DNA of 56,693 bases from Oscillospiraceae bacterium (GTDB lineage Bacteria; Bacillota; Clostridia; Oscillospirales; Ruminococcaceae). The notes under the pieces are model-generated. The model was given only the letters and a program-made list of their open reading frames with translations, was not told the origin of the DNA and ran no database searches. A program made the translations under genes and the position numbers. Where the stretch lies: the NCBI GenBank assembly GCA_031253495.1, contig JAIRWC010000045.1, positions 1-56,693 on the forward strand, read 5' to 3'. This document shows positions 2,994 to 47,578 of the stretch, piece by piece; within the stretch, counting starts at the first letter, position 1, and the number at the start of each line of letters is the position of its first letter.

Positions 2994-3036
2994 ACGGCAC
3001 CTCTATTCTTAATTTTTATTAGACCTCGGTTCGCTT

Positions 3037-4233
3037 TTAATTGCCCAAACCGCCCATCGAACCGTAAATCAGCGGGAATATTCCGGCGAGAACCAACGCC
3101 ACCGCCCCGCCCAACAGGATTATCATAAGCGGCTCAAGCATATTTACGAGACCGGTAATGGCGGCGTCGGATTCCTCATCGTAATAATCCGCCGTCTTTG
3201 CCAGGATGGAATCAAGGCTCCCCGATTCTTCGCCGACGACGACCATCGCCGTAAATATGGGGTTGAACACGTTAATCCTGATTAACGCCTGCGAGAGCGG
3301 TTCCCCCCGCTTTACGTTCTCCACGACCTCTTTGAAACGCTCGATTATATACGAGTTGCCGAGCGTTTGGACGGATTTTTCTATACATTCGACCATTTGC
3401 AGACCCGACGCGAAAAGGTTTGCCATGGTCCTCGCGAAACGCGCCGTGTAGATAGTGGTCAAAAGTTCGCCCGCCTTCGGTATTTTCAGTATAAACAAGT
3501 CGATTTTAAACCTGATATTGGGCGTTTTCAGCGCGACCCGCCCCACGACAATCAACATCGCGACGACCCCGATAATCAAATACCAGTACGTCGTCATAAA
3601 GGTGCTGATGCCCATCAAAGCCGCCGATAATTTCGGGATATCCTCCGCGTTTTCAAACAGACCCATAAACATCGGGAAAATAAACGTAAACAGACCCACG
3701 ACGATAAACACCATCAAGACCGCAAGGATAATCGGATACATCATCGCGCCCTTGATTTTGTTGTTGGTCTTGTTTTCTTTGGCGTAATGGTCGGCGACCC
3801 TGGTCATAATCATGTCGAGGTTACCCGAAGCCTCGCCCGCGGCGACCATGCTCAAAAACAAATTCGGGAAACTGCCGGGCTTCGACGCCAACGCTTCCGA
3901 CAAAGAGCGCCCCGTCTGCACCTGCTCGTAAATTTCGGTAAGGAGCGCCTTCGCCTTTTTGTTTTTCTCCTGCGTAACCATTATGTGCAACGCGCGAACG
4001 ATGCTGATACCGGCCACCAACATCGAACTTAACTGGCGGCACAGGAACGCCAGCGTTTTTGTCTTGTACTTAAAAGTAACCTGCTGGGCTTTTTCCAGCC
4101 GTTCCTTATAAGACGTACAGAAAAGCTGACGGGTTTTCAGCTTTTCTATTAACTCGTGATGATCCGCGGCAATTTCTTTGCCTCTGGAAATGTTTCCGTT
4201 CACGTCGGTAGCCACATACGAATAAACAGCCAC
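3037..4233 (-). CDS. pilC: PilC/GspF-type pilus inner-membrane platform protein
   Basis: The 398-aa length is normal for the T2SSF family. It has a short N-terminal domain (MAVYSYVATDVNGN, with the YxYxAxDxxG start common in PilC) and two tandem F domains, each ending in membrane helices. The paired motifs MVAAGEASGNLD and MVVVGEESGSLD are the family's duplicated GExSG hallmarks. The protein is the integral-membrane platform on which the assembly and retraction ATPases act. Translation starts at GTG behind GGAGG. It is first in the leftward pil operon and has its own promoter. No PilB, PilT or pilin gene is visible; they probably lie outside the window. Confidence 0.92.
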   Translation of the reverse strand: MAVYSYVATDVNGNISRGKEIAADHHELIEKLKTRQLFCTSYKERLEKAQQVTFKYKTKTLAFLCRQLSSMLVAGISIVRALHIMVTQEKNKKAKALLTEIYEQVQTGRSLSEALASKPGSFPNLFLSMVAAGEASGNLDMIMTRVADHYAKENKTNNKIKGAMMYPIILAVLMVFIVVGLFTFIFPMFMGLFENAEDIPKLSAALMGISTFMTTYWYLIIGVVAMLIVVGRVALKTPNIRFKIDLFILKIPKAGELLTTIYTARFARTMANLFASGLQMVECIEKSVQTLGNSYIIERFKEVVENVKRGEPLSQALIRINVFNPIFTAMVVVGEESGSLDSILAKTADYYDEESDAAITGLVNMLEPLMIILLGGAVALVLAGIFPLIYGSMGGLGN

Positions 4234-4373: not shown

Positions 4374-5951
4374 CTAATTAGTAATCCCAAAACGCCTCAC
4401 GTCGGGTAATTCGTCGAGGCAAACGGTGAGTTCATGGTTATAAAACCTATCCAGCCCGTCTTTGATTTCCTCGAGAACCGCGCCGTTTTCGTCGATAACG
4501 TAATCCCCCCGGTAAAGCGACCAGAACAGCCACCGCGCGTTATCCCTCGCGAAAGCGTCGACGGCGGGCGGACCGCCGCTTTCCGAAACGGCGGCGGGCT
4601 TTTTCGCCGTCGCGGTTCCCGCGGGGGAACCGTAATCCTCCGTATACCCGAACCTGACCGCTTCGGAGCCGCGGACTCCCCCGGAGGGGGCGTACGCGAT
4701 TTCCCCTATTATATCGACGTAACCGTCGCCGGGGTAATATTCATAGCCGCCGCCGCTCCAAACCCAGATAAGGTTATCCAATCCGTGATAATACGTCATC
4801 CTTTCAAAAAGCAACCGCCAAAGCCAGACATAATTCTCCCCGCCGGAAGCGCCCCACCAATAAAGGCGGCTCCCCCCGTCCGGAACGGGCTGCCACAGCA
4901 CGGGAATATCCTTTTGAGCCAAGCGCGCCAGCGTCGCCGCCATATCGTCGACGTCGCGGATAAGCAGCGCGCAGGAAACCGGGATTTTCCCCGTTTCAAC
5001 CGCTTCGCTTAACTCTTCCGCGCCCATGCGGGAGACGTTTGTTTCGGTAACGGCGTTTTCAAGGGAAAAGCCGTTTTTATCCGCGTAATACCTCCCCGAT
5101 TCGTCCGGGGCGTACCACGACCAAGTAAAAAACACTATGCCGCCTTTTTCGCTCCACTCCTCCGCCAGCTCGATTTCCTTGTTCTCGTCTTTGTCCGCCC
5201 CCCCGTAGCCGTAGGAATAATTCGCCAAATCCCCGCACCTTACGGCGGGTTTCCGCCCCGTCGCGTCCGAAACGGCTTCAATCTCCGCGTCGGTGTTAAC
5301 CGTGCAATACTGCCCCGTCAATACCCTGTCGCCGAAACAGGCGGCGAGGTAATCAAAGACGCAAGCCGCCGAAAGGCTCGGTTCAAGGGCGCAGAGTTTC
5401 GGAACCGTCTTGTACCTTTCGCCCGATACGGCCTTTGAGTTTTCCGCGCTCACGCTTTCGATTTTTACCGCCCCGCGCAAAGCCGTAAAGGTCAGCTCGG
5501 TCTTCCCGCCGGGCAGATATATATAATCCATGAAGAACGTTTCATACTCGTAGAAATTATCCGTATAATAAGCCCCGAATGTTTCCCCGGCGGTGGAAAG
5601 CGCCACCGCCGCGCCGTTACCGGACGAATCCGCGTCCGTCGTCAGCGCCCTTATCCCGATACGGTAATGCTGCGCCGTTATCAATTCGACCTCGAATGAA
5701 AAGCTGTCGCCCTTTTCGATTAATCGGGGGGAATCCGGGGTATATTCCGAGTAATACTCTTTTTTGATTAAATCGTATTTTTTCTGTTTATATTTGTTGG
5801 TTACGGCTTCCCGCGCGGGTTCGCGCGTTTTGTCCTTTTCCGGCGCGATAACGGCGGCGGGTTTCTCGGGATAGCGGATTTGGGCGCACCCCGTAAAAAG
5901 GAGCAAAACGGCGGCCGCCGCCGCGATTGCCTTAAAATGTTTGATTTTCAT
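4374..5951 (-). CDS. GH26-like lipoprotein with altered acid/base site
   Basis: The 525-aa product has a lipoprotein signal (lipobox LFTGC, Cys22), a beta-sandwich-like region (about 60-170) resembling carbohydrate-binding modules, then a TIM-barrel region like GH26 beta-mannanases. Family landmarks are FFTWSW (275-279), WQPVPDGGSRLYWWG (353-367), LIWVWS (394-399) and KPAAVSESGG (451-460), whose Glu457 fits the nucleophile. In the family the acid/base segment reads RPLHEMNGxWFWWG; here the His-Glu pair is Pro357-Asp358, so the general acid is Asp or absent. The enzyme may be slow, retuned or a surface glycan-binding pseudoenzyme. It diverges from dapL with an AAAGGCGG ribosome site. Family membership is recognised from motifs, not a search. 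Confidence 0.7.
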   Translation of the reverse strand: MKIKHFKAIAAAAAVLLLFTGCAQIRYPEKPAAVIAPEKDKTREPAREAVTNKYKQKKYDLIKKEYYSEYTPDSPRLIEKGDSFSFEVELITAQHYRIGIRALTTDADSSGNGAAVALSTAGETFGAYYTDNFYEYETFFMDYIYLPGGKTELTFTALRGAVKIESVSAENSKAVSGERYKTVPKLCALEPSLSAACVFDYLAACFGDRVLTGQYCTVNTDAEIEAVSDATGRKPAVRCGDLANYSYGYGGADKDENKEIELAEEWSEKGGIVFFTWSWYAPDESGRYYADKNGFSLENAVTETNVSRMGAEELSEAVETGKIPVSCALLIRDVDDMAATLARLAQKDIPVLWQPVPDGGSRLYWWGASGGENYVWLWRLLFERMTYYHGLDNLIWVWSGGGYEYYPGDGYVDIIGEIAYAPSGGVRGSEAVRFGYTEDYGSPAGTATAKKPAAVSESGGPPAVDAFARDNARWLFWSLYRGDYVIDENGAVLEEIKDGLDRFYNHELTVCLDELPDVRRFGITN

Positions 5952-5963
5952 TCAAAAACCGCC

Positions 5964-5992
5964 TTTACATCGGGTAATCGGTGTGCTATAAT
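5964..5992 (+). promoter_or_regulatory. Promoter for dapL
   Basis: TTTACA and TATAAT are separated by 17 bp, with TGC directly before the -10 box, ending 32 bp upstream of the dapL ATG. Confidence 0.8.
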
Positions 5993-6024
5993 AGATAAAA
6001 ACATACGCTGAAAGGAAAATTTTT

Positions 6025-7224
6025 ATGGCAAGGATGAACGGGAATTTCCTCAATCTGAAAGAAAACTATCTCTTTATCGAAATCAGCAGGCGGGTGGGGG
6101 AGTTTGCCCGGCAAAACCCCGGTTCGCGCTTAATCCGCATGGGGATAGGCGACGTTACCCTCCCCCTCGCTCCCGCCGTCGTCGAAGCGGGAAAGAAGGC
6201 CTTTGACGAAATGGGGGTTAAAAGCACGTTTCGCGGTTATGAAGATTCCGGGCGGGGCTACGATTTTTTGAGGGAAGCCGTTTCCGGATACTATAAGGGG
6301 TTCGGCGCCGACATCCCCCCCGACGAGATTTACATAAGCGACGGCGCGAAGTCAGACAGCGGGAATATAGGCGACATTTTCAGCGCGGACTGCGCCGTAA
6401 CCGTTACCGACCCCGCCTATCCGGTTTATGTGGATTCAAACGTCATGGGCGGCAGGGACATAACATACGCCTCTTCCGACGAAAGCAACGGCTTCGCCGC
6501 CGCGCCCGACCTTTCCGTGAAAACCGACGTCATTTACCTTTGCTCCCCGAATAATCCCACCGGCTCCGCCTACACCTTCGACCAACTTAAAAAGTGGGTG
6601 GATTACGCGGTTATGAACAAGGCCGTAATCGTCTATGACGCGGCGTATGAAGCGTTCGTCACGGAAAAGGACAAACCGAGGAGCATAATGCTTATCGAAG
6701 GCGCGCGGAAATGCGCCGTTGAAATTTGCTCGTTATCGAAAACGGCGGGGTTCACCGGAACGCGGTGCGGTTACGCCGTGATACCGAAAGAGCTTGTTTT
6801 GTCCGCGCCGAACGGGGAGGAAAAACCGTTTTATAAGCTATGGGAACGAAGGCAGGGCAGCAAATTCAACGGCGTGTCCTACCCCGTTCAAAGAGCCGCC
6901 GAAGCCGTTTTCTCGCCGGCGGGGCTGCGCCAAACGAGGGAAGCCGTCGATTATTACCTCGGCAACGCCGGAATTATGGCAAAAACACTTTCGGAACTCG
7001 GCGTTCCTTTCACAGGCGGGACAAATTCGCCCTACGTATGGTTCAAATGCCCGAACAACACGGACAGTTGGGAATTTTTCGACGAGGCGCTTCATAAAAT
7101 CAACGTCGTCGGAACGCCGGGCGCGGGTTTCGGGAAAAACGGCGCGAATTGGTTCAGGCTAACCGCTTTCAACACCCGCGAAAACACGTTGGAAGCGATG
7201 AAAAGACTGAAAGAATTATTTTAA
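6025..7224 (+). CDS. dapL: LL-diaminopimelate aminotransferase
   Basis: DapL converts tetrahydrodipicolinate and glutamate directly to LL-diaminopimelate, the shortcut route to lysine and peptidoglycan precursors used by many Clostridia. The 399-aa protein is a full-length fold-type I aminotransferase: MGIGDVTLPLAP near the N-terminus is the family signature, CSPNNPTG (173-180) holds the substrate-binding Asn, YDAAYEAF carries the PLP-contacting Asp/Tyr, and SLSKTAGFTG (236-245) holds the Schiff-base Lys239. GTRCGY supplies the phosphate-binding Arg. It is monocistronic, with its own promoter and an AAAGG ribosome site. Its stop overlaps the convergent FtsA-like gene's stop by 4 bp. Confidence 0.93.
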   Translation: MARMNGNFLNLKENYLFIEISRRVGEFARQNPGSRLIRMGIGDVTLPLAPAVVEAGKKAFDEMGVKSTFRGYEDSGRGYDFLREAVSGYYKGFGADIPPDEIYISDGAKSDSGNIGDIFSADCAVTVTDPAYPVYVDSNVMGGRDITYASSDESNGFAAAPDLSVKTDVIYLCSPNNPTGSAYTFDQLKKWVDYAVMNKAVIVYDAAYEAFVTEKDKPRSIMLIEGARKCAVEICSLSKTAGFTGTRCGYAVIPKELVLSAPNGEEKPFYKLWERRQGSKFNGVSYPVQRAAEAVFSPAGLRQTREAVDYYLGNAGIMAKTLSELGVPFTGGTNSPYVWFKCPNNTDSWEFFDEALHKINVVGTPGAGFGKNGANWFRLTAFNTRENTLEAMKRLKELF

Positions 7225-9299
7225 AGGTTTTTTGCGTCGTCTTCGGACCATTTCAATTCCGCCGTGTCCCCGTTCTTAATCTCGCTGTTGAAATTCGCGG
7301 TGTCGTCGTTTATCAGCATGACGTACTCCCCTTTCGGATTGTCGAAATCCAACCGGGAATAATTGAGCAGTTCCAAAAACGTGTGAGGGAGTTTATCGGG
7401 GTTCGGCGGCAAAGTAACGCTCTCCCCGTTGAACGTTATGCTTATCTCGCCCCAAACGGAGCGGTCGCCGTCGTTTTTTTCCTCGCCCACGAAAATCGGC
7501 GCGTTTTCTGGGACGGCGACGCCGGTTTCGATTATATCCCCGTCCGAAAGCAGATAATCGCCGTCTTGCGCGCGCCCGTTGACGGCGGCCGTTTCGGCGG
7601 CGCCGAAATGCGCGAGCAGGTCGTCTAACGTCAAAACGCCGTAGGTTTCTATTTCGTCGAGGTTTTGTATCGAATAATCGTCGCCGACGGTTTTTCCGTT
7701 GACTTTTATCTCGGGTCCTATCGGAAATTCGCCGCCGTTGAAAATTACTTTCCCTTTGTTGTATTTCGCGGCGTCGATAACGTCGCGGATTAGGGCTTTC
7801 GCGTTTTCGCCGCAAACCGCCGGGGTGAAATCGACCTTGTCCCCGCCCGTAACCCGCGCGCTTAACGAAACGGGGTTTCCGCCGAGCAGAACGCGCGCCG
7901 GCTCGAAGCCGCCGCCCCTTTTCGTCCTGCGGGAGCCGTTAAGCGAATAGGTGAGGTTATGCCCGGAACGCCCCAGTATTTCGGCGGACTTAAACCCCGC
8001 CACGGTAAGCAGTTCAAACACGGTGATTTTGTTCGTGTCGAAGATGCGTATGCTCCTGTCGTTGAGGGTTATGACCGAAAAGTCATAGCCCTTGTTCATC
8101 ACCCCGGTAACGCCTATTCCGAGCGGGGTAACAAATTCCGCGCCCATAAGCCGCCCGCCGGTGTCGATGTTCTTTAAGTTTTCGTGGCTCCCGAGCGCCA
8201 CCCTTTCGAGGGGGAGCGACAGCTTTTCCGAAACGGTTTCGGGCAGACCTTTGACAAGGCTTCCGCCGCCGATTAAAAACACGGCGGCGGGCGGACCGCC
8301 GTTCGCCTCGATAATATTGGCGCAAATCGTGTCGGCGAGAACGTCGACGCTCGGCTCGATTTTCTCCGCGAACTCGTCGGGGGTGATTTTCCGCTCAATC
8401 CCGAAGATATCGCGGTATGAACATTCCTCGCCGCCGCAGCACTTTTGCTTTATTGTTTCGGCGGTATTGAAATCCACAAAATAGGCTTTGATGATTTCCT
8501 CGGTAATCTCGTCGCCCGCCGTCGTAGCCATGGCGTAGGCGACAATGCTCCCGTCCCGCGAAACGGCGATGTCGGAGGTTCCCGCGCCGATATCGACCAA
8601 AGCTATGTTAATCAGCCTTATCTCCTGCGGAATAATCGCGTTCATGGCGGCAATCGGCTCCAGCGTAAGGCTTGACACCGCAATGGAGTTCATATCCATC
8701 ACGGAATACAGCCCTTCGACCACCACGTTCGGCAGGAAAGTGGCTATCAGCTCGACCGCGGCCTTTATCCCCTTGTGCCCCTCCAAATTAAGCATTTTAT
8801 AATCGTCGAGCATATAGCTGATTATCGAATATCCCACGCAGTAATAAGGGGTGTTCACGCCTTTTTCGGCTGACAATTCCTCCGACGCCTTTTGGATTGT
8901 CTCGATTTCCATTGATTTTATCATATCAAAGGTAATCGACTCGGTTTCCGCCAAATCGAAGTCCATGGAAACCCGCCGCGTTTTCAGCGCGCGCCCCGCC
9001 GCGGCTATGGAAACGCGTTCAAGTTTGACGCCCGCCCGTTCCTGAAGCTGTTCCTTCACCCTCGCGACAATGCGGGAAACCTGTCGAATGTCCTCAATCT
9101 GCCCGTCAATCATCGCCCTTTTGGGGTGCGGTTCCACAACGAAATCAATTACGTTGAACACGTCGTCTTTTTGTTCCCCGATAATCCCGACGACGGTTCT
9201 CGTTCCTATATCGAGGGCGAAAACCGCGTCGCCCTGCGGCTTCAGCCCGACGTTTCCGCCCGTGTTTTCGGCGTTTTTGTTTTCCGGATTTTTTTGCAT
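7221..9299 (-). CDS. Long FtsA-like actin-fold ATPase
   Basis: The 692-aa product has an actin/HSP70-fold ATPase core (about residues 25-420): FALDIGTRTVVGIIG is the phosphate-1 loop, LVDIGAGTSDIAV the phosphate-2 loop and VFLIGGGSLVKGLPE the adenosine motif, all matching FtsA/PilM. Residues 50-120 resemble the FtsA 1C domain. About 270 further residues follow, with little resemblance to known domains and no obvious amphipathic C-terminal membrane helix. Clostridia carry such long FtsA-type proteins outside the ftsAZ locus; their job is unclear. A role with division, shape or the pilus locus is possible. No ftsZ is near. The core fold call is firm, the function is not. Confidence 0.72.
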   Translation of the reverse strand: MQKNPENKNAENTGGNVGLKPQGDAVFALDIGTRTVVGIIGEQKDDVFNVIDFVVEPHPKRAMIDGQIEDIRQVSRIVARVKEQLQERAGVKLERVSIAAAGRALKTRRVSMDFDLAETESITFDMIKSMEIETIQKASEELSAEKGVNTPYYCVGYSIISYMLDDYKMLNLEGHKGIKAAVELIATFLPNVVVEGLYSVMDMNSIAVSSLTLEPIAAMNAIIPQEIRLINIALVDIGAGTSDIAVSRDGSIVAYAMATTAGDEITEEIIKAYFVDFNTAETIKQKCCGGEECSYRDIFGIERKITPDEFAEKIEPSVDVLADTICANIIEANGGPPAAVFLIGGGSLVKGLPETVSEKLSLPLERVALGSHENLKNIDTGGRLMGAEFVTPLGIGVTGVMNKGYDFSVITLNDRSIRIFDTNKITVFELLTVAGFKSAEILGRSGHNLTYSLNGSRRTKRGGGFEPARVLLGGNPVSLSARVTGGDKVDFTPAVCGENAKALIRDVIDAAKYNKGKVIFNGGEFPIGPEIKVNGKTVGDDYSIQNLDEIETYGVLTLDDLLAHFGAAETAAVNGRAQDGDYLLSDGDIIETGVAVPENAPIFVGEEKNDGDRSVWGEISITFNGESVTLPPNPDKLPHTFLELLNYSRLDFDNPKGEYVMLINDDTANFNSEIKNGDTAELKWSEDDAKNL

Positions 9300-26569: not shown

Positions 26570-27442
26570 TTGAACGTCATTGAAGTTAAAAACCTTTACT
26601 TTGAATATAATTCTTATGACGAGCACGACAAAATCACGGGGAGCGCGCCCGTTTTGCGCGATATAAGCCTTGAAATCCCAAGCGGGCAGTTCGTGGCGGT
26701 GTTGGGGCATAACGGCAGCGGCAAATCGACGCTCGCCAAGCATTTCAACGGGATTTTAACCCCGTCGAAAGGTTTCGTTACGGTGGACGGAATAGACATC
26801 GCCGACGATTCCGCGCTGCAAAGGCTGCGGCAAACGGTGGGCATGGTGTTCCAGAACCCCGACAACCAAATAGTGGCGACAATCGTGGAAGAGGACGTGG
26901 CGTTCGCGCTGGAGAATTTGGGCGTTCCCCCCGCGGAAATCAGGGAAAGGATTGACCGCGCCCTGGAAACGGTGGATATGTCGCGTTTCGCCAAACACGC
27001 GCCGCATCAGCTTTCGGGCGGGCAGAAGCAAAGGGTGGCAATCGCGGGGGTAATAGCGATGTCGCCCAAGGTGCTGGTTCTCGACGAGCCTACGGCGATG
27101 CTCGACCCGAAAGGGCGCGGCGAAGTCGTGAGAACCGTGAAAAAACTCAACGCCGACGGGGCGACGATTGTCTATATAACCCATTATATGGAAGAAGCCG
27201 CCGAAGCCGACAGGGTAATTGTAATGGACGGCGGCAGGGTGATAATGGACGGAACCCCGAAAGAAATCTTCGCCGAGGTCGGGCGGCTTAAGTCGGTCGG
27301 GCTGGACGTCCCGCAGGTTACGGAACTGGCGCATGAATTAAGGAAAAACGGGGTCGATATCCCCGGCGACGTTATTACCGAGGAAGAATGTGCGGAACAC
27401 ATCGTAAAATTATTGGCGCGGGCAAATTATGACTGTTATTGA
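26570..27442 (+). CDS. ecfA1: ECF transporter ATPase EcfA1
   Basis: The 290-aa ATPase powers energy-coupling-factor vitamin and metal uptake. Walker A is GHNGSGKST, the Q-loop MVFQNPDNQIVA is the family's QNPDNQ mark, the signature is LSGGQKQRVAIA, Walker B VLVLDEPTAMLD, and the H-loop ITHYMEEA. The start is TTG behind GGGGG, an uncommon choice but the only one that fits. It overlaps ecfA2 by 14 bp. The T subunit gene that usually follows A1-A2 is missing here. Confidence 0.92.
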   Translation: MNVIEVKNLYFEYNSYDEHDKITGSAPVLRDISLEIPSGQFVAVLGHNGSGKSTLAKHFNGILTPSKGFVTVDGIDIADDSALQRLRQTVGMVFQNPDNQIVATIVEEDVAFALENLGVPPAEIRERIDRALETVDMSRFAKHAPHQLSGGQKQRVAIAGVIAMSPKVLVLDEPTAMLDPKGRGEVVRTVKKLNADGATIVYITHYMEEAAEADRVIVMDGGRVIMDGTPKEIFAEVGRLKSVGLDVPQVTELAHELRKNGVDIPGDVITEEECAEHIVKLLARANYDCY

Positions 27443-28280
27443 AACCAAGAACCTGACTTATAAATATTCGGTCGGAACGCCCTTTGAGGTTACGGCGGTG
27501 AAAGACGTCAGCTTTACCGTCGAAAAGGGCGATTTTATCGGAATAATAGGGCATACCGGCAGCGGGAAATCCACGCTTACCCGGCACCTCAACGGCTTAT
27601 TGAAACAGACGGGCGGGGAGGTTTGGATAAACGGGCGGGACATCCGCGCCAAAGGGGTGAACATTCGGGATATCCGGTTTGAGGTGGGGTTGGTGTTCCA
27701 GTATTCGGAGCATCAGCTTTTCGAGGAAACCGTGTTTAAGGACATATCGTTCGGACCGAAGAACATGGGTTTGTCCGAGGACGGGATTAAGGAGCGCGTT
27801 TTGCGCGCCGCCGAATATATGGGGGTTCACGAAAATTGGCTCTCCCGTTCGCCTTTCGACCTGTCCGGCGGGCAAAAACGCCGCGTGGCGCTCGCGGGCG
27901 TGATAGCGATGGAACCGCGTATCCTCATCCTTGACGAACCGGCGGCGGGGCTTGACCCGCGCGGGCGGGAAAAGGTGCTTAAATTCATCAGCGATTACCA
28001 TAAGAGCGCGGGAATAACAATCATCCTCGTTTCCCACTCGATGGAGGATATAGTCAGATACGCGGGCAAGGTTCTCGTAATGAACGACGGCGGGATTTTT
28101 TGTTATGAAAAAACCGACAAGGCGTTCTCCCGCGTTAAGGAAATCGCGGAAATCGGTCTGGGCGTTCCGCAAATAACGCGGCTCGCGGAACGGCTGCGCG
28201 AAAAAGGCGTGGATTTGGGAACCGACGTTTATACCGTCGAACGGGCCGTTGAAAGAATACTCGGGCTGATGCGAAAATAA
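27429..28280 (+). CDS. ecfA2: ECF transporter ATPase EcfA2
   Basis: The 283-aa product has Walker A GHTGSGKST, the Q-loop VFQYSEHQLFEETV (the EHQLFEETV stretch marks EcfA2), the signature LSGGQKRRVALA, Walker B ILILDEPAAGLD and the H-loop VSHSMEDI. It pairs with EcfA1 as a heterodimer. The gene ends at a dispersed repeat rather than at an ecfT gene, so the T component must be elsewhere or shared. Confidence 0.92.
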   Translation: MTVIETKNLTYKYSVGTPFEVTAVKDVSFTVEKGDFIGIIGHTGSGKSTLTRHLNGLLKQTGGEVWINGRDIRAKGVNIRDIRFEVGLVFQYSEHQLFEETVFKDISFGPKNMGLSEDGIKERVLRAAEYMGVHENWLSRSPFDLSGGQKRRVALAGVIAMEPRILILDEPAAGLDPRGREKVLKFISDYHKSAGITIILVSHSMEDIVRYAGKVLVMNDGGIFCYEKTDKAFSRVKEIAEIGLGVPQITRLAERLREKGVDLGTDVYTVERAVERILGLMRK

Positions 28281-40538: not shown

Positions 40539-41564
40539 ATGTATGACAGAAGCGAAGCTCCCGCGTGCGTTAGGGAATTTCTCGATTATACCGCGACGAT
40601 AAAGGGGCGCTCGGAGAACACTGTCGTCAGTTATTTTCACGATTTGAAATATTTTTTAAGGTTTTTGAAAATCAAGCACGGCTTAACCCCGAAAAGCCCT
40701 TTCGAGGATATCGGGGTCGGGGATTTTCCGGACGGTATCATAAAAAACGTCGAGCTTGTCGATATTCTTGAGTTTCTGCATTTTTTATCGAGCGAACGGC
40801 GCAATTCCCCGAAAGCGCGGGCGCGCCGCGCCGTGGCGTTACGGCAGTTCTTCAAGTACCTTACCAACAATAAACAGTGGTTCGAGGTCAGCCCCGCGCA
40901 AAACCTTGAAATGCCGGGCGTAAAACCGCCGCTCCCAAAGCATTTGACGCTGGAGCAGGCGACCGAGCTGCTTTCCGTCTGCGGGGACGGCGGCGGTTGG
41001 ATGGGAGCGAGGGATTACTGTATTATGACGTTTTTCCTCAACTGCGGAATGAGGCTGAACGAACTGGTGGGGCTGGATTTGCACGATTATAAAAAGGAGA
41101 GGGAGCCAAGCGCCGAAGAGCGCACGGACTATATAAAGGTGTTGGGCAAAGGGAGCAAAGAGCGCATTATTTATCTTAACCCCGCCTGCATCGGGGCTTA
41201 TGAGGCTTATTTGACCGAACGCCAAAAACTCTGCGTTGAAAACGAGCGCGTCCGCTTTGAGAAGGCGATGTTTTTAAGCGGTCGATTCAAGCGCATATCG
41301 GCGCGCCGGGTCGAGCAGATTATCACGGAAAAGCTGAGGCTGTGCGGGCTGGACGGGCTGGGGTTCTCGGTGCATAAGCTAAGGCATACCGCCGCCACGC
41401 TTATGTACAAGAACGGCGTGGACGTCCGCGTTTTAAAAGACGTCCTCGGCCATGAAAACCTCGGCACGACGCAGATTTATACCCATGTGGTAAACGAGCA
41501 GATGAAGCGGGCGATTAACAATAACCCGCTTGCCGAGGTAAAAATCAAAAAAGAAGACGAATAA
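40539..41564 (+). CDS. xerC: Tyrosine recombinase XerC/XerD
   Basis: The 341-aa product is a Xer-type recombinase, which resolves chromosome dimers at dif together with FtsK, or acts in phage-like integration. The N-terminal SAM-like core-binding domain (about 10-110) and the catalytic domain are both present. Catalytic residues are Arg172 (NCGMRLNELVGL), Lys204 (GKGSKER), His279 and Arg282 (VHKLRHTAAT), His305 (LGHENLGTT) and Tyr314. Its length and single-gene setting fit a housekeeping Xer. XerC or XerD cannot be told apart here. The ribosome site is GGAGG. Confidence 0.93.
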   Translation: MYDRSEAPACVREFLDYTATIKGRSENTVVSYFHDLKYFLRFLKIKHGLTPKSPFEDIGVGDFPDGIIKNVELVDILEFLHFLSSERRNSPKARARRAVALRQFFKYLTNNKQWFEVSPAQNLEMPGVKPPLPKHLTLEQATELLSVCGDGGGWMGARDYCIMTFFLNCGMRLNELVGLDLHDYKKEREPSAEERTDYIKVLGKGSKERIIYLNPACIGAYEAYLTERQKLCVENERVRFEKAMFLSGRFKRISARRVEQIITEKLRLCGLDGLGFSVHKLRHTAATLMYKNGVDVRVLKDVLGHENLGTTQIYTHVVNEQMKRAINNNPLAEVKIKKEDE

Positions 41565-41748: not shown

Positions 41749-42540
41749 ATGCCGAAACCTCCGGGAAAGTCTAAGCTGACGACCAGGGCGATAAATCTTT
41801 ATTACGGTAATTATCACGCTTTGGGGGATATTACGGTGGAAATACCGGAGTGTGCCGTTACGGCGGTTATCGGGCCGTCGGGGTGCGGCAAATCCTCTTT
41901 TTTACGTCTTTTTAACCGCATGAACGATTTAATCCCGACCGCCAGGGTGGAAGGCGAGGCTTTTATAGACGGCGCCCCCGTTTACGGGAAAGATTCGGAC
42001 GCCGTGTCGCTGAGGAAAAGGGTCGGCATGGTTTTTCAAAAGCCGAACGTTTTCCCGATGAGCATTTATGAGAACATCGTTATCGGACCCAGGCACCACG
42101 GCGTGAAAAACCGCGGCGAATTGGACGCCGTCGTCGAGAGGTGCCTTGCCCAAGTCGCGTTGTGGGACGAGTTGAAGGACGTCGGCATCAGGAACAAATC
42201 CGGATTGGAGCTTTCTTCGGGGCAGCGGCAGCGCTTATGTATCGCCCGCGCGCTCGCGGTTGACCCGGAGGTTATACTGATGGACGAATCCTGCAGCGCC
42301 CTCGACCCCGAGTCAACCATGAAAATCGAGGAGCTGATGGCGGATTTGGCTTGCCGGTATACCATTATAATTGTTACTCACAATATGGAGCAGGCGTTGA
42401 GGGTGTCCGATATGTCGGCGTTTTTTATGATTGACGGGGACAAAGTGGGGAGATTGGTTGAATACGCCCCCACCATCGATATGTTTTACGCCCCTAAAGA
42501 CAAGCGAACGGAAGATTACATCACGGGGCGGTTCGGATAG
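41749..42540 (+). CDS. pstB: Phosphate ABC transporter ATPase PstB, catalytic copy
   Basis: The 263-aa product powers PstCA phosphate uptake. Walker [10 protein letters not shown] (42-50) is intact, as are the Q-loop Gln97 ([13 protein letters not shown]), Walker B VILMDE with Glu180, and His211 (VTHNMEQA). The signature is LSSGQ (155-159) instead of LSGGQ, and Walker B continues Ser rather than Pro. It is first in the operon, before pstS, whereas pstB normally follows pstA. A second pstB closes the operon with the opposite set of changes, so the two probably form a heterodimer. Confidence 0.93.
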
Positions 42541-42549
42541 GGAGGTTTG

Positions 42550-43389
42550 ATGAAGGTGAAATTCCCCAAACGCGCCGCTTTCGTCATGCTGTCGGCGGTT
42601 ATCCCCGCGTTTATGTCCTCATGCGGCGGCAAAACGGGTATAAGCGTCGTCGTCGCGGGTTCGACGTCGGTTCAGCCTTACGTTGAAATGTTGGCGGAGG
42701 AATACGAACTCCTCTGTCCGGGAATAGTCGTCGATATTCAGGGCGGCGGCTCGTCGGCGGGGGTTACGGCTGTCGAAAGCCGCACCGCCGACGTCGGTAT
42801 GTCTTCCCGCGAGCTCAACGAAAAGGAGCGGGAATTGTGGTCGACGGTGATAGCGAAGGACGGTCTGGCGCTCATAGCGCATCCGGATAACCCCGTCGAT
42901 AACCTCGCCATCGGGCAAATCCGCGATATTTACTCCGGAAAAATCACGAACTGGAGGGAGTTGAACGGCGCGGACGCGAAGATACATATTATTTCACGGG
43001 AAGAGGGTTCCGGAACGAGGAGCGCTTTTGAAGATATGGTGATGGCGGGCGAGCCCGTAACCCCGAAAGCCATCGTGCAAAATTCCAACGGCGCGGTTAG
43101 GCTGTTGGTTTCAAACGACCCGAACGCCGTCGGGTTCATTTCCCTCGGTTTAATCGGGAACCAAGCGGGATTAAAACCGGTAAAGGCGCTGAAGTTAGAC
43201 GGCGTTTCACCCACGCGGGAGAACGTGATAAACGGCGGTTACAGCCTGTACAGACCGTTTTTGCTCGTCGCGGAAAGCGAACCCGAAGGGGCGGCAAAAC
43301 TTTTCGTGGACTTCATTCTTTCGGAGGAAGGGCAGCGGCTGCTGGTTGAAGAAGGGCTTGTGTCTGTTCGGGAAGGAACGGGTGAATGA
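42550..43389 (+). CDS. pstS: Phosphate-binding lipoprotein PstS
   Basis: The 279-aa product has a lipoprotein signal (lipobox MSSC, Cys25) and a PstS/SBP fold: VAGSTSVQPYVEMLAEEY and DIQGGGSSAGVTAV form the phosphate-binding loops, DVGMSSREL and REEGSGTRSAFE complete the site. It captures phosphate outside the membrane for PstCA. ATG at 42550 is used, behind GGAGG at 7 bp; a TTG one codon earlier is possible. Its stop overlaps the pstC start (ATGA). Confidence 0.94.
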   Translation: MKVKFPKRAAFVMLSAVIPAFMSSCGGKTGISVVVAGSTSVQPYVEMLAEEYELLCPGIVVDIQGGGSSAGVTAVESRTADVGMSSRELNEKERELWSTVIAKDGLALIAHPDNPVDNLAIGQIRDIYSGKITNWRELNGADAKIHIISREEGSGTRSAFEDMVMAGEPVTPKAIVQNSNGAVRLLVSNDPNAVGFISLGLIGNQAGLKPVKALKLDGVSPTRENVINGGYSLYRPFLLVAESEPEGAAKLFVDFILSEEGQRLLVEEGLVSVREGTGE

Positions 43390-44237
43390 GGAAGTTTAAA
43401 GAAAAATTATCCGAGCGGATATTTTTCGCGCTGGCTCTCTCCTCCATATCCGTGCTGGCGCTCATCACGCTGTTTATCTTCATAAAGGGCGTCCCCTTAA
43501 TCGCGGAGGTAGGCGCGTTTAAGTTTATTTTCGGGATGAGTTGGGCCCCCGGGAGGGGCGAGTTCGGGATTTTTCCTATGATAATAGGCTCGGTGTCGGT
43601 TACGCTCGGAGCGGCGGTCTTGGGAATCCCCGTCGGAATTTGCTGCAGTATCTTTATGGCCGAATTCGCCCCCGTCTGGATGAGGAACATATTCAGACCC
43701 GCCATACAGTTACTGGCGGGCATCCCTTCGGTGGTTTACGGTTTTTGGGGGTTGCTGTTCGTCGTCCCCGCGATACGGAATTACTTGGGCGGGCCGGGGC
43801 TCAGCATATTGGCGGGCTCCGTAATTCTCGCGATTATGATTTTGCCGACGATTATAAGTATTTCAGAGGTGTCGCTGCTCGCTTTGCCGCGTCATTATAA
43901 AGAGGGGGCGCTGGCGTTGGGCATGACCCATTGGCAGACAATCCGCTCCGTTCAGCTCCCGGCGGCGAAGTCGGGCATAGTAGCGGCGGTTATCTTGGGC
44001 ATAGGGCGCGCTATCGGCGAAACGATGGCGGTTATCATGGTACTGGGAAATTCCGTGGCCGTTCCGCAGTCGGTGCTCGACCCGGTAAGGACGCTGACCA
44101 CCAACATCGGCATAGAAATGGGATACGCGTCCGGCGGGCATCAGCAAGCCCTTTTCGCCACGGGGATAGTGCTGTTTGTCATTATCATGGCTTTAAACGT
44201 ATCCGCGCAGTATATCACCCGGAGGAAAATTAAGTGA
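43386..44237 (+). CDS. pstC: Phosphate permease PstC
   Basis: The 283-aa product has about six membrane helices and the PstC landmarks FGMSWAPGRGEFGIFPMIIG, AGIPSVVYGFWGL and the ATPase-coupling EAA loop region EGALALGMTHWQTIRSVQLP, followed by GRAIGETMAVIMVLGN. With PstA it forms the transmembrane channel. Its stop overlaps pstA's GTG by 4 bp. Confidence 0.94.
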   Translation: MRKFKEKLSERIFFALALSSISVLALITLFIFIKGVPLIAEVGAFKFIFGMSWAPGRGEFGIFPMIIGSVSVTLGAAVLGIPVGICCSIFMAEFAPVWMRNIFRPAIQLLAGIPSVVYGFWGLLFVVPAIRNYLGGPGLSILAGSVILAIMILPTIISISEVSLLALPRHYKEGALALGMTHWQTIRSVQLPAAKSGIVAAVILGIGRAIGETMAVIMVLGNSVAVPQSVLDPVRTLTTNIGIEMGYASGGHQQALFATGIVLFVIIMALNVSAQYITRRKIK

Positions 44238-45124
44238 AACCGACAAAGCCGCCCCCGCGCCGGTTTAATTTTCGCGGTTTTAAACCCCGCGAGATAAAAC
44301 CCCAAACCGTCGAGAAAATCGTCAAAGGCTTCGTCTGGTCGGTGGCGCTTATGGTAATCGCCGTCCTCATATCCATCGTCGTGTTTATACTTTATAAGGG
44401 GCTGCCTGTCATAAATTGGGGCTTTTTGACGGAAATCCCGCGTAAGATGGGGCGCGAGGGCGGTATTTCATCCGCGATTGCGGGAACCTTGCTTGTAACC
44501 GCCGTAGCCGTTTTTATCGCGATGCCATTCGGTATAGGAACGGCTTTTTATTTGGCGGAATATACCCGCGGCAACACCGTAACCCGCGTTATCCGGTTCA
44601 GCGCGGAATCGCTCGCCGGAATACCGTCTATCGTGTACGGGCTGTTCGGTTTTATATTTTTCGTTATGTACCTGAATTTGGGGTGGTCTGTCCTTTCGGG
44701 CGGGTTAACCCTCGCCATTATGATTTTGCCCACCATAATCCGCACGTCGGAAGAGGCTATACGTTCCGTTCCGAACACCTACCGCGAGGTCGGCTTTTCG
44801 TTGGGGGGAACCAAGTGGCAGACGATACGCGGGGCGGTCGCTCCGTCGGCGGTGCGCGGCATAGCCAACGGCGTCATTTTAAGCGTGGGCAGAAGCGTCG
44901 CCGAAACGGCGGCGGTGGTTTTAACCGCCGGTTCGGCTTTACGTATGCCCGCGTCCCTCTCTTCTCCCGCCCGAACCATGGCGGTGCATTTTTACATACT
45001 CGCGACGGAGGGAATCTCGATGGAGAACGCCTACGGAACGGCGGCGATTTTGATTATACTGATTTTCTTCATAAATATCGTCGCCAACACGCTTATTAAC
45101 AGATTTGTGGCGAAAGGGCGGTAA
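44234..45124 (+). CDS. pstA: Phosphate permease PstA
   Basis: The 296-aa product has an N-terminal Pro/Arg-rich tail (about 1-30), then about six helices with PstA marks: AGIPSIVYGLFGFIFFV, the coupling loop EVGFSLGGTKWQTIRGAVAP and GRSVAETAAVVLTAGSA. It pairs with PstC. Start is GTG in a 4-bp overlap with pstC. The second pstB starts 1 bp after its stop. Confidence 0.93.
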   Translation: MKPTKPPPRRFNFRGFKPREIKPQTVEKIVKGFVWSVALMVIAVLISIVVFILYKGLPVINWGFLTEIPRKMGREGGISSAIAGTLLVTAVAVFIAMPFGIGTAFYLAEYTRGNTVTRVIRFSAESLAGIPSIVYGLFGFIFFVMYLNLGWSVLSGGLTLAIMILPTIIRTSEEAIRSVPNTYREVGFSLGGTKWQTIRGAVAPSAVRGIANGVILSVGRSVAETAAVVLTAGSALRMPASLSSPARTMAVHFYILATEGISMENAYGTAAILIILIFFINIVANTLINRFVAKGR

Positions 45125-45125
45125 A

Positions 45126-45899
45126 ATGACGACTTCTTCCGATAAGATAGCCATAAAAGACTTTAATTTTTATTTTAACGAAAAACAGGTGATACACAAC
45201 CTTAACCTCGGCATACCGCCGAATAAGATATTCGCGGTTATCGGACCGGCGAACAGCGGGATTACGACGCTGTTGCGTTCGCTGAACCGCCTGTGCGACC
45301 TTTCGCATGAGGCGAGGCAGGAAGGCGAGATACTGTTGGACGGTCGGAATATCCGCGCGCCGGACGTAAGCGTGACGGAACTGCGCCGCAGGGTGGGTAT
45401 TGTTTTCGACGTGCCTACCCCGCTCCCCATGTCAATATTTGACAATGTGGCATACGGTCCCCGCTTAAACCGGAAAACCCGCGGGAAAAACAAAAGCGCG
45501 CTTTCCGGGATTGCGGAAGAGGCTTTGCGGCAGGCGGCGCTCTGGGACGAGGTTAAGGACAGGCTGAACGCCCCCGCCATGAGTCTGTCCGGCGGGCAGC
45601 AGCAGCGGTTGTGTTTGGCGCGCGTATTGGCTTTAAAGCCGGAGGTTATACTGCTTGACAGGCCGTGTTCCGGGCTTGACCCCATATCCACGGCCAAAAT
45701 CGAGGATTCGCTTATCGAACTGAAAAATCGGTTCACCATCGTCATTTCCCCGCATAACATACAGCAGGCGGGGCGCGTTTCCGACAGGATAGCGTTTATG
45801 CTTATGGGGCGCTTAATAGAGGAGGGCGCGAACGCCGACGTCTTTTCAAACCCGAAAGACCAAAGAACGAGCGATTATATCACGGGGAGATTTGGTTAA
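45126..45899 (+). CDS. Degenerate PstB paralogue, predicted non-catalytic
   Basis: The 257-aa product is clearly PstB-like along its length, including the family end [11 protein letters not shown], but its catalytic motifs are broken. Walker A reads GPANSGITT (40-48), with Ile46 for the essential Lys. The Q-loop Gln is Asp95 (GIVFDVPTPLPMS). After Walker B the catalytic Glu is Arg179 (VILLDRPCSGLD). The signature LSGGQ (154-158) and His210 are intact. The frame is open with no stops and normal codon use, so it is not a pseudogene. The intact LSGGQ would complete the live site of the first PstB, while its own dead site faces that protein's altered LSSGQ. Confidence 0.88.
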   Translation: MTTSSDKIAIKDFNFYFNEKQVIHNLNLGIPPNKIFAVIGPANSGITTLLRSLNRLCDLSHEARQEGEILLDGRNIRAPDVSVTELRRRVGIVFDVPTPLPMSIFDNVAYGPRLNRKTRGKNKSALSGIAEEALRQAALWDEVKDRLNAPAMSLSGGQQQRLCLARVLALKPEVILLDRPCSGLDPISTAKIEDSLIELKNRFTIVISPHNIQQAGRVSDRIAFMLMGRLIEEGANADVFSNPKDQRTSDYITGRFG

Positions 45900-46057: not shown

Positions 46058-47578
46058 ATGGCAAAAAAAAGCAAAACCAAAGGGGCGGGCGCGCAAGATA
46101 AAGCCGCGGTTTCAACCTCTTCTTTCGGTGAAAAGCTGAAAAATTATTCCGTGCGAAAAAAGGTCAAATTCCTTGTCATAAGCGTGTGCGCTTTATCGGC
46201 GCTTATCGTTTGCCTGTCGGCGTTCGTCATATCGGCGGTGATGACGTCGAACTCGCTGAACGCGGCGAAAGCCCTCGGCAACAGGGCTGTCGCCGAATCG
46301 CAAAATTCGCTGAGCGAGCAGTCTAAGGTTCTGCTGGATGAAATCGCCGTCGAACAGGCGCGGATTTGCGCGGAACTTTTCGGCGATACGGAAGATTATA
46401 TGGACAACCTCCCCGACGTCTTGGCTTTTATAAGCGCGAAAAGCGTCGGGTTCACGTTCATTCTGGAGATTGACTCGGGCGAATACATAGCCCACCCCGA
46501 CGGCAATTTCGACGCGAAGAGCGTGGAGGATTTTATCGGCGCCTATAAAGAAAAGAAAATCAAGCGTATCACCAACCCCGTAACGGGGAAAAGCGAGGAG
46601 GTTTACGTCGCTTTTTCCGAGATAAAGCTCGCCGGCGCGGAGTACGCGTTGGGCGTCGCCATGACAAAATCCGAAATGATTTCGGAATACGGCGAGCTTG
46701 CCGAGAAAATAAAGGCGGGCATGATTGAGACCGATAAAGAGATAAAAGACATTTCAAACATGTTGACGGTCATCCTCCTCGGGGTGTCGGCGGGGTTGTC
46801 GGTCGCGGTAATAGTCCTGCTCGTCAAGAATTTGAACAAAATGGTGTCAATTCCGCTTTCCGGTTTGGTTTTCGACATTAAAAACAAGACCGAGGGAATA
46901 GACGAAATAAAAATCAGCAAGGAAACAAATAACGAGTTGCTCATACTTGAAAGCGCCCTATTCCAGCTGATTGACAGCCTGAAGGAAAATATGGAGGACG
47001 TTCTCCAGCTTAGCGGTCTTACCGAAAAGTTTGAAAACAGCGCGAATTTCGATATGCTTACGGGCGTTTTCAACCGCAGGCGGTTTTATGAGCTTGTTCA
47101 GCAACACGCCGTCATCGCCGCGAGGAAAAACGCCCCCACTTTCGTCATTATGCTTGATTTGGACCATTTTAAAAGGGTTAACGACACTTATGGGCACGCC
47201 GCGGGCGACGAGGTGCTTAAGACGATTGCGGGGAGGATAAAAGACACCGTGCGCCCCTCCGACCTTTTCGGAAGGTACGGCGGCGAAGAGTTTATCATGT
47301 TCATTTCCGTTTCCGACACGAGCAACGCGAACACTTTCGCGGAACGTATCCGCCTTAATATTGAATCGGCCCCCGTCGTTTTTGAAGATATATCCATCCC
47401 GGTAACGGCGAGTATGGGGTTGGCGCAGGTCGCTCCCGACACGGATTTTGACACGGCGCAAAAGAACGCCGACGCCGCGCTTTACAAAGCGAAAGAAAAC
47501 GGCAGAAACCGCGTTGAGATTTATTCGGAGGAAAATTTTAAGCAGGCGGACGAAGAACAAAGCGAGGGCGAGGCTTAG
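46058..47578 (+). CDS. Membrane diguanylate cyclase (GGDEF)
   Basis: The 506-aa product has a Lys-rich cytoplasmic start, transmembrane helices at about 37-62 and 238-258 around an extracellular domain of about 175 residues with a Cache-like FTFILEIDSGEYIAHPDG segment, a short coiled linker and a GGDEF domain. FDMLTGVFNRRRFYEL opens the domain, DLDHFKRVNDTYGHAAGDE is the metal and substrate site, and GGEEF (408-412) is the active-site loop. The inhibitory I-site RPSD (399-402) is intact, so product feedback is expected. It should make cyclic di-GMP in response to an external ligand. It stands alone behind its own promoter. Confidence 0.93.
   Translation: MAKKSKTKGAGAQDKAAVSTSSFGEKLKNYSVRKKVKFLVISVCALSALIVCLSAFVISAVMTSNSLNAAKALGNRAVAESQNSLSEQSKVLLDEIAVEQARICAELFGDTEDYMDNLPDVLAFISAKSVGFTFILEIDSGEYIAHPDGNFDAKSVEDFIGAYKEKKIKRITNPVTGKSEEVYVAFSEIKLAGAEYALGVAMTKSEMISEYGELAEKIKAGMIETDKEIKDISNMLTVILLGVSAGLSVAVIVLLVKNLNKMVSIPLSGLVFDIKNKTEGIDEIKISKETNNELLILESALFQLIDSLKENMEDVLQLSGLTEKFENSANFDMLTGVFNRRRFYELVQQHAVIAARKNAPTFVIMLDLDHFKRVNDTYGHAAGDEVLKTIAGRIKDTVRPSDLFGRYGGEEFIMFISVSDTSNANTFAERIRLNIESAPVVFEDISIPVTASMGLAQVAPDTDFDTAQKNADAALYKAKENGRNRVEIYSEENFKQADEEQSEGEA

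Follow-up and report, generated by a model that had tools for sequence, protein, structure and literature searches.

The pst operon and its two PstB proteins

The window analysed here is a stretch of 56,693 nucleotides from an Oscillospiraceae bacterium (GenBank assembly GCA_031253495.1, contig JAIRWC010000045.1), and it makes up an entire contig of a 1.67 Mb genome (45 contigs, 98% complete). Five head-to-tail genes on the + strand, pstB1-pstS-pstC-pstA-pstB2, span positions 41749-45899 and encode an ATP-binding cassette (ABC) transporter of the Pst type, with two different PstB proteins. For all five products the best NCBIfam match is a Pst family (PstB, PstS-family, PstC, PstA and PstB, in gene order). 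The phosphate-binding-type substrate-binding protein PstS (42547-43389; TIGR02136, 220.6 bits against a cut-off of 206.6) and the permeases PstC (43386-44237; TIGR02138, 295.9 against 196.45) and PstA (44234-45124; TIGR00974, 271.8 against 193.45) all exceed the curated cut-offs of their families. PstB1 (41749-42540), a live ABC ATPase with a degenerate signature, clears the PstB cut-off only narrowly (TIGR00972, 345.0 bits against 343.2), and PstB2 (45126-45899), a catalytically dead PstB with an intact signature, falls below it at 329.7 bits, though TIGR00972 is its best family and PstB its fold. The best of five AlphaFold2 models of PstB2 has a pLDDT (predicted local distance difference test) of 90.6, the other four lying at 65-74, and the nearest solved fold is that of E. 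coli PstB in PstSCAB (9k3s/9k3x, template-modelling score 0.89-0.91). PstB2 is PstB-derived and lies outside the PstB equivalog. The solved phosphate-binding homologues 4gd5 and 4q8r match PstS along most of its length, which makes phosphate the likely substrate.

The two PstB proteins differ in the residues that matter for ATP hydrolysis. In PstB1 the catalytic set is intact, with Walker A K48 (41890-41892), Q-loop Q97, the pair D179/E180 (catalytic Glu180 at 42286-42288) and H211, and the signature at residues 155-159 (42211-42225) reads LSSGQ, with Ser at position 3. The Walker A motif of PstB2 reads GPANSGITT, with I46 in place of Lys (45261-45263); D95 replaces the Q-loop Gln (45408-45410) and R179 the catalytic Glu (45660-45662). 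Retained in PstB2 are LSGGQ (residues 154-158; 45585-45599), Walker B D178 and H210. An earlier note on this DNA had described just such a pair, the last PstB with Ile, Asp and Arg for Lys, Gln and Glu beside a perfect LSGGQ and the first with all catalytic residues beside LSSGQ, and both the gene positions and the residues agree with that description.

In ABC dimers, each ATP site is composed of the Walker motifs of one subunit and the signature of its partner. By this geometry the changes in PstB1 and PstB2 would spare one site and make the other degenerate on both of its faces: by sequence, one of the two composite sites lacks the Lys, the Gln and the Glu, and also lacks an intact facing signature. 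The earlier note had sorted the changes in this way from the single operon, and the same split holds in 59 of 59 PstB1 and 70 of 70 PstB2 sequences from the wider comparison.

Reciprocal conservation in two PstB lineages

For that comparison, 252 PstB sequences were aligned (8 rows having been removed as duplicate or short), and the columns of the Walker A, Q-loop, signature, Walker B/D-loop and H-loop motifs were taken out, leaving 211 columns. In the resulting motif-free tree PstB1 (59 rows, local support 0.998) and PstB2 (70 rows, 0.993) form separate clades, and 123 rows are ordinary PstBs. Initial class labels came from whole-protein BLAST bits, with one sequence, L187, moved manually out of the ordinary class into PstB1 ahead of tree building. 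For the clade counts the PstB at L257 (genome G975) was included in the PstB1 set and five unlabelled PstB2 rows in the PstB2 set, and both sets proved to be clades free of other sequences. Without L257 the PstB1 clade has 58 rows and a local support of 0.864. The fusion L124/L188, described below, was excluded from the trees and from the motif counts by clade.

Lys, Gln and Glu are intact in 59/59 members of the PstB1 clade, and the Gly-Gly of the signature is present in 0/59. Position 3 is occupied instead by P, A, L, V, S, M, T or I, and position 4 is Glu in seven. A recount over operon stretches found no Gly at position 3 in any of 53 distinct in-operon PstB1 proteins, a set that overlaps the 59 of the tree. 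The PstB2 clade has lost all three catalytic residues in 70/70 members and keeps the GGQ of the signature in 70/70. The Walker A Lys is replaced by I in 47, V in 12, T in 9, A in 1 and L in 1; the Q-loop Gln by D in 45 and E in 25; and the catalytic Glu by R in all 70. Among the ordinary PstBs, which are mostly top-scoring matches from the order of this genome or from the same genomes and not a bacteria-wide sample, the catalytic residues are intact in 123/123 and the signature in 122/123, the exception being L275 with LSRGQ. The altered signature thus covaries with the dead partner, 59/59 PstB1 against 1/123 ordinary PstBs, a test proposed in the earlier note.

At an earlier stage, rows shorter than 200 residues or with identical last 150 residues had been removed. 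Column entropies were computed on an earlier set of 55 PstB1, 65 PstB2 and 73 ordinary sequences. For the signature core they are 1.43 bits in PstB1, 0.00 in PstB2 and 0.15 in ordinary PstBs, and for Walker A 0.12, 0.44 and 0.03, respectively, against whole-protein values of 0.90, 0.98 and 0.88. LSGGQQQR is invariant in 65/65 PstB2 of this set; the PstB2 D-loop, SGLDPIST, is invariant as well, though most of that stretch was selected for by the DNA pattern used to find the sequences. Motifs are conserved where they would serve the ATP site of PstB1 and free to vary where they would serve that of PstB2. Such reciprocal conservation is expected if selection acts on a heterodimer that has a single working site, and it is hard to explain with a PstB1 homodimer, which, lacking an intact signature, would carry two defective sites.

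Orthologues of PstB2 and selection on the pair

A search for PstB2 in 60 genomes (this one and 59 relatives) found orthologues in eight, with 69-80% identity in the other seven. All eight keep LSGGQ and have I, V or T at the Lys position, D or E at the Gln position and R at the Glu position. The earlier note had named intact motifs in the orthologues of close relatives as the mark of a sequencing error, and none of the eight has them. When a profile of these eight was run over 394 genomes of the order, eight genomes, this one included, scored 427-495 bits, followed by an ordinary PstB at 351 bits. A broader profile found PstB2 in 3 of 391 genomes in the class, 4 of 188 in the order of genome G781 and 4 of 398 in the phylum, counts that include genomes already found in earlier runs; the lesser matches above threshold were intact ordinary PstBs (four in the class run, nine in the phylum run). 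Taken together, the whole-protein and profile searches gave 23 distinct genomes, this one included, and 23/23 show the three losses together with LSGGQ. The profiles contain the motif columns, so this sample is partly motif-aware, but no exact residue was required, and Arg replaces the catalytic Glu in 23/23. Seventeen of the 23 genomes have a PstB1 on the stretch that bears PstB2, with its signature altered every time.

A DNA pattern for DR[PSAT]CSGLDPIST was also run over 84,980 named species genomes and matched 68 stretches, one of them the fusion L124. The pattern fixes Arg, Cys and Gly by design, and these residues are not evidence when read from its 68 stretches. Its count is a lower bound, as it misses five of the 23 genomes (G781, G975, G991, G1023 and G1101), in which PstB2 reads DRPCAALDP, DRPCSALDP or DRPCASLDP. 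These searches confirm that the PstB1/PstB2 split is real and extends beyond this window.

PstB2 is under purifying selection. The ratio of nonsynonymous to synonymous substitution rates (dN/dS) is 0.00-0.10 in 11/11 pairs, similar to PstC and PstA; dS exceeds 1 in eight of these pairs, which makes their ratios rough, and the three pairs with dS below 1 give 0.000, 0.012 and 0.101. For pstB1 the ratio was valid in three of the 11 pairs (L098-L126, 0.063; L139-L148, 0.037; L134-L148, 0.043), the other eight being discarded because one or both loci had no pstB1 and pstB2 had been picked up in its place.

Operon linkage and neighbouring genes

In 51 of 74 distinct PstB2 loci, PstB1 is encoded upstream of PstB2 on one contig and strand, and the genes follow the order B1, S, C/A, B2. 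The other 23 have no upstream PstB1, and 20 of these show at most 3.2 kb of upstream sequence, too short to judge; the three that are left, in G781, G991 and G061 (L092), are true exceptions, discussed below. A phoU gene directly follows pstB2 in 31 of the 74 loci. In the apparent lake bin G974 (L221/L262) and in G975 (L257), phoU lies between pstB1 and pstS; the G975 PstB1 reads DEPCSSLDP instead of DESCSALDP. At L211 (G435, Treponema), from position 5265, an asymmetric and an ordinary pst operon are direct neighbours in opposite orientation on a 106 kb contig. The fusion at L124 (Lab288P3bin203, 2217-3038, minus strand) is a single open frame, of the PstB1 type in its N-terminal half (LSPGQ) and of the PstB2 type in its C-terminal half (DRPCSGLD); phoU comes next, and pstSCA is missing. 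It may be a natural deletion between homologues or an assembly misjoin.

In the window, a GGDEF diguanylate cyclase gene (46058-47578) lies directly downstream of pstB2, the place occupied by phoU in many relatives. Directly upstream of the operon is a tyrosine recombinase of the XerC/XerD family (40539-41564, under the curated cut-offs). It had no match at 1e-30 among the other operon stretches compared, and is therefore probably unrelated to the pst operon. Two adjoining ABC ATPase genes at 26633-28142, with weak matches to the PstB profile, are possibly an energy-coupling-factor pair.

Ordinary PstBs were sought in 31 genomes with PstB2. Seven (G421, G426, G428, G440, G441, G446 and G448) showed none besides the members of the pair, and in G445 PstB2 was the only PstB seen. 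In G016 and G006, too, only the PstB1/PstB2 pair was seen, which makes nine genomes in all where no PstB was found besides members of the pair. G430, G443 and G444 have PstB2 and an ordinary PstB with no PstB1 seen, their PstB2 contigs being short.

Distribution among termite gut bacteria

The 68 genomes matched by the DNA pattern include one, AlinenLipids, that looks to us like a lake sample. Termite-type sample codes are borne by 67 of the 68, and 59 were traced to a termite in the literature. Going by record titles, 58 carry sample codes from a survey of eight higher termites (PMC7024585), namely Embiratermes (15), Labiotermes (14), Termes (12), Neocapritermes (11), Cornitermes (3) and Cubitermes (3), and the code Hm464 stands for the lower termite Hodotermes mossambicus (PMC10684969). 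Eight genomes with codes of the same style (Pal332 in four, Cyl330, Spi319, Co333 and Glo450) would by that likeness also come from termites; a literature search on five codes, four of these five included, returned no paper naming their host. The two wood feeders of the eight-termite study (26 of 589 metagenome-assembled genomes) account for 0 of its 58 matches (P = 0.06), and with the share of those genomes in the collection uncertain we claim no link to a wood diet. The termite link itself covers the named genomes found by the DNA pattern, and is a tally and not a formal enrichment. The motif pattern of PstB2 had no matches in viral contigs, and a profile-derived search of IMG/VR gave two loci (L093 and L094, the latter partial) that are ordinary PstBs as far as they could be read. 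Carriage by phages or mobile elements was rejected on these grounds, the recombinase beside the operon being probably unrelated.

By phylum, as read from their titles, the 68 genomes fall into Bacillota (55), Spirochaetota (nine, all Treponema) and Actinomycetota (four, Coriobacteriia). The PstB2 tree splits the Spirochaetota between two positions and gathers the four Actinomycetota into a single supported group surrounded by Bacillota. Mean identity between Treponema and Bacillota is 67.6% for PstB2 (408 pairs) and 60.8% for ordinary PstB (36 pairs); the corresponding figures for Coriobacteriia against Bacillota are 67.3% (204 pairs) and 69.6% (36 pairs), with no excess for PstB2. Since the excess is found in Treponema only, horizontal transfer is favoured there by these identities and is not shown for Coriobacteriia. 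Bins can contain foreign contigs, and seven of the nine Treponema contigs are longer than 26 kb. We give about even chances to a history in which an importer using one ATP per phosphate arose once and spread horizontally among the Bacillota, spirochaetes and Coriobacteriia of termite guts.

A proposed one-site importer and its alternatives

We consider it probable that the operon encodes a Pst-type phosphate importer with two obligately different ATPase subunits and one working ATP site. The predicted PstB fold of PstB2, the reciprocal residues, the operon linkage and the selection on PstB2 all count in favour of such a heterodimer, and a phosphate importer with a single ATP site is strongly suggested. 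In the mechanism we propose, PstB1 and PstB2 would pair head to tail beneath the PstC/PstA channel. The single ATP-splitting site would be built from the Walker A, Q-loop, Walker B and His of PstB1 and the LSGGQ and D-loop of PstB2. The other site, in which the Lys-less Walker A, acidic Q-loop and Arg of PstB2 would stand opposite the drifted signature of PstB1, would be dead on both sides and may serve as a fixed hinge. In 70/70 PstB2, loss of the Lys is joined by an acidic Q-loop residue and an Arg at the catalytic position, a charge-balanced set, and the hinge might be held by a salt bridge from the Q-loop Asp/Glu to the Arg. One ATP, not two, would then be split per imported phosphate.

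Several observations weigh against this proposal or limit it. An ordinary PstB is also present in 23 of the 31 genomes, and the genome of this window itself has an ordinary pst operon with intact PstB on contig C16, which leaves room for a role other than import. A possible though unlikely explanation along these lines is a phosphate transceptor, in which an asymmetric complex slow at ATP hydrolysis would report phosphate to PhoU/PhoR and the ordinary Pst would import. The phoU genes directly after pstB2 at 31 loci fit this idea, as does the proposal that the conformation of E. coli PstSCAB signals to PhoR via PhoU, for which PstB mutants were made to lock the conformation (PMC5775613). In this window, however, no phoU was found next to the operon, and the Treponema operons show only weak phoU matches (31-33% identity, at L133 and L211) to a clostridial PhoU query that a divergent phoU could escape. 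Moreover, the invariant PstB2 signature and PstB1 catalytic residues resemble those of a working ATPase. The pair can be the sole Pst seen, as in the nine genomes without an ordinary PstB, which favours import over pure sensing; most genomes are drafts, so failure to find a third PstB counts for little. The linkage of the pair also has exceptions. In G781 (L220, 7691-10999) and G991 (L258, 147-3538), pstSCA-pstB2 has no pstB1 in the operon, and the PstBs elsewhere in these genomes are of the ordinary type with intact LSGGQ, so that PstB2 is not always dependent on a degenerate partner. The operon also seems fragmented at two loci: at L092 (G061, 5820-7666), pstA-pstB2 has no pstC upstream, and PstB1 and pstS are on another contig (L233); at L095 (957-1769, minus strand), pstB2-phoU has no pstA in the 2.6 kb upstream. 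It could be supposed from G781 and G991 that PstB2 is a general asymmetric partner for any live PstB, the ordinary one included. We regard this as improbable, given a dedicated pstB1 in the same operon at 51 of 74 loci and a signature degenerate in all 53 in-operon PstB1, which would be unexpected unless the dead PstB2 were the partner; G781, for its part, carries a second PstC/PstA pair. These two genomes may be intermediates in which the dead PstB2 would have arisen ahead of a dedicated PstB1.

The remaining alternatives do away with the heterodimer or with the split itself. That a PstB1 homodimer does the work, PstB2 being a leftover or an unrelated regulator, is suggested by the retention of every catalytic residue in PstB1. 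It also gains from the ordinary-lineage PstB at L275 (G1101:C2, 1438-2232), which has LSRGQ, intact catalytic residues and a pstC-like gene following it; this is an independent signature change, and it implies that a change at signature position 3 alone need not signal asymmetry. Purifying selection on PstB2, its LSGGQQQR kept invariant despite its own dead ATP site, and the lack of an intact signature throughout the PstB1 clade make this reading very improbable. The split could finally be a sequencing or assembly artefact, or a pseudogene decaying in one genome, the genomes being draft metagenome bins and the fusion L124 perhaps a misjoin. Seventy distinct PstB2, drawn from several assemblies and phyla, share these replacements, with dN/dS low in every pair, and we rejected this explanation, the chance of which we consider negligible.

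Relation to known transporters

The one-site phosphate importer proposed here shares its gene set of S, C, A and B with E. coli PstSCAB (9k3s, 9k3x), and PstB2 is nearest to E. coli PstB in both fold and sequence. E. coli PstB was modelled as a homodimer (PMC5775613), with two equal ATP sites, whereas here there are two different PstBs and, by sequence, one site is dead. Two PstBs from one pst operon are as such already known in Firmicutes: in B. subtilis the PstBA/PstBB pair has been modelled as a heterodimer (PMC11466899), and in E. faecalis the tandem pstB genes are adjacent and both copies have intact motifs (PMC12096839), in contrast to the present operon, where pstB1 and pstB2 flank pstSCA and both motif sets are changed. 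A passage of PMC12096839 notes that the relative contributions of tandem pstB paralogues were without published study.

The pattern of one consensus and one degenerate composite site, with the signature of the partner altered, is that of TAP, TM287/288, MRP1, CFTR, Pdr5 and ABCG5/G8; Pdr5 likewise lacks the Walker A Lys, the Glu and the signature, and in ABCG5/G8 the Walker A Lys is replaced by Arg (PMC7756269). At the sequence level this pattern is found here, with two different nucleotide-binding domains, changes gathered in one composite site and an altered signature facing the dead Walker A. The asymmetric proteins just named are exporters or channels, however, while the system described here is a binding-protein-dependent importer with its ATPases on separate polypeptides, and its replacement of Glu by Arg together with an acidic Q-loop residue is unlike the asymmetric exporters. 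RbsA and NupO, the substrates of which are ribose and nucleoside, also bear comparison. They are importers with one degenerate site, the second Walker A lacking its Lys, but their nucleotide-binding domains are fused in a single chain and they are classed as type II importers (PMC11466899), not Pst. The peptide importer DppD/DppF has two different nucleotide-binding polypeptides, as here, in a model where both subunits hydrolyse ATP (PMC12136057), unlike the split proposed for PstB1 and PstB2.

The earlier note knew of no description of such a pattern in a Pst importer. This part of it stands in that searches of the open-access literature, preprints excluded, found no Pst system with complementary degeneration; it needs qualifying in that tandem pstB genes, a modelled B. 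subtilis heterodimer and importers with one degenerate site are on record. What appears to be new for Pst is the complementary live/dead PstB pair, asymmetric ABC sites and tandem pstB being already known.

The need for two hydrolysing sites in ABC importers has mostly been probed with engineered mutants. The split Pst would be a natural, conserved and separately encoded one-site version of a textbook importer, for which the ordinary two-site Pst systems that often share its cells are built-in controls, and the acid-plus-Arg replacement in the dead site may serve as a recognition signature for such subunits. Its near confinement, among the named genomes matched by the DNA pattern, to termite-type gut samples across phyla suggests that the phosphate or energy supply of this habitat favours the split design. 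If the proposal is right, it would provide a natural test, under selection in the gut, of whether a binding-protein-dependent importer requires two working ATP sites.

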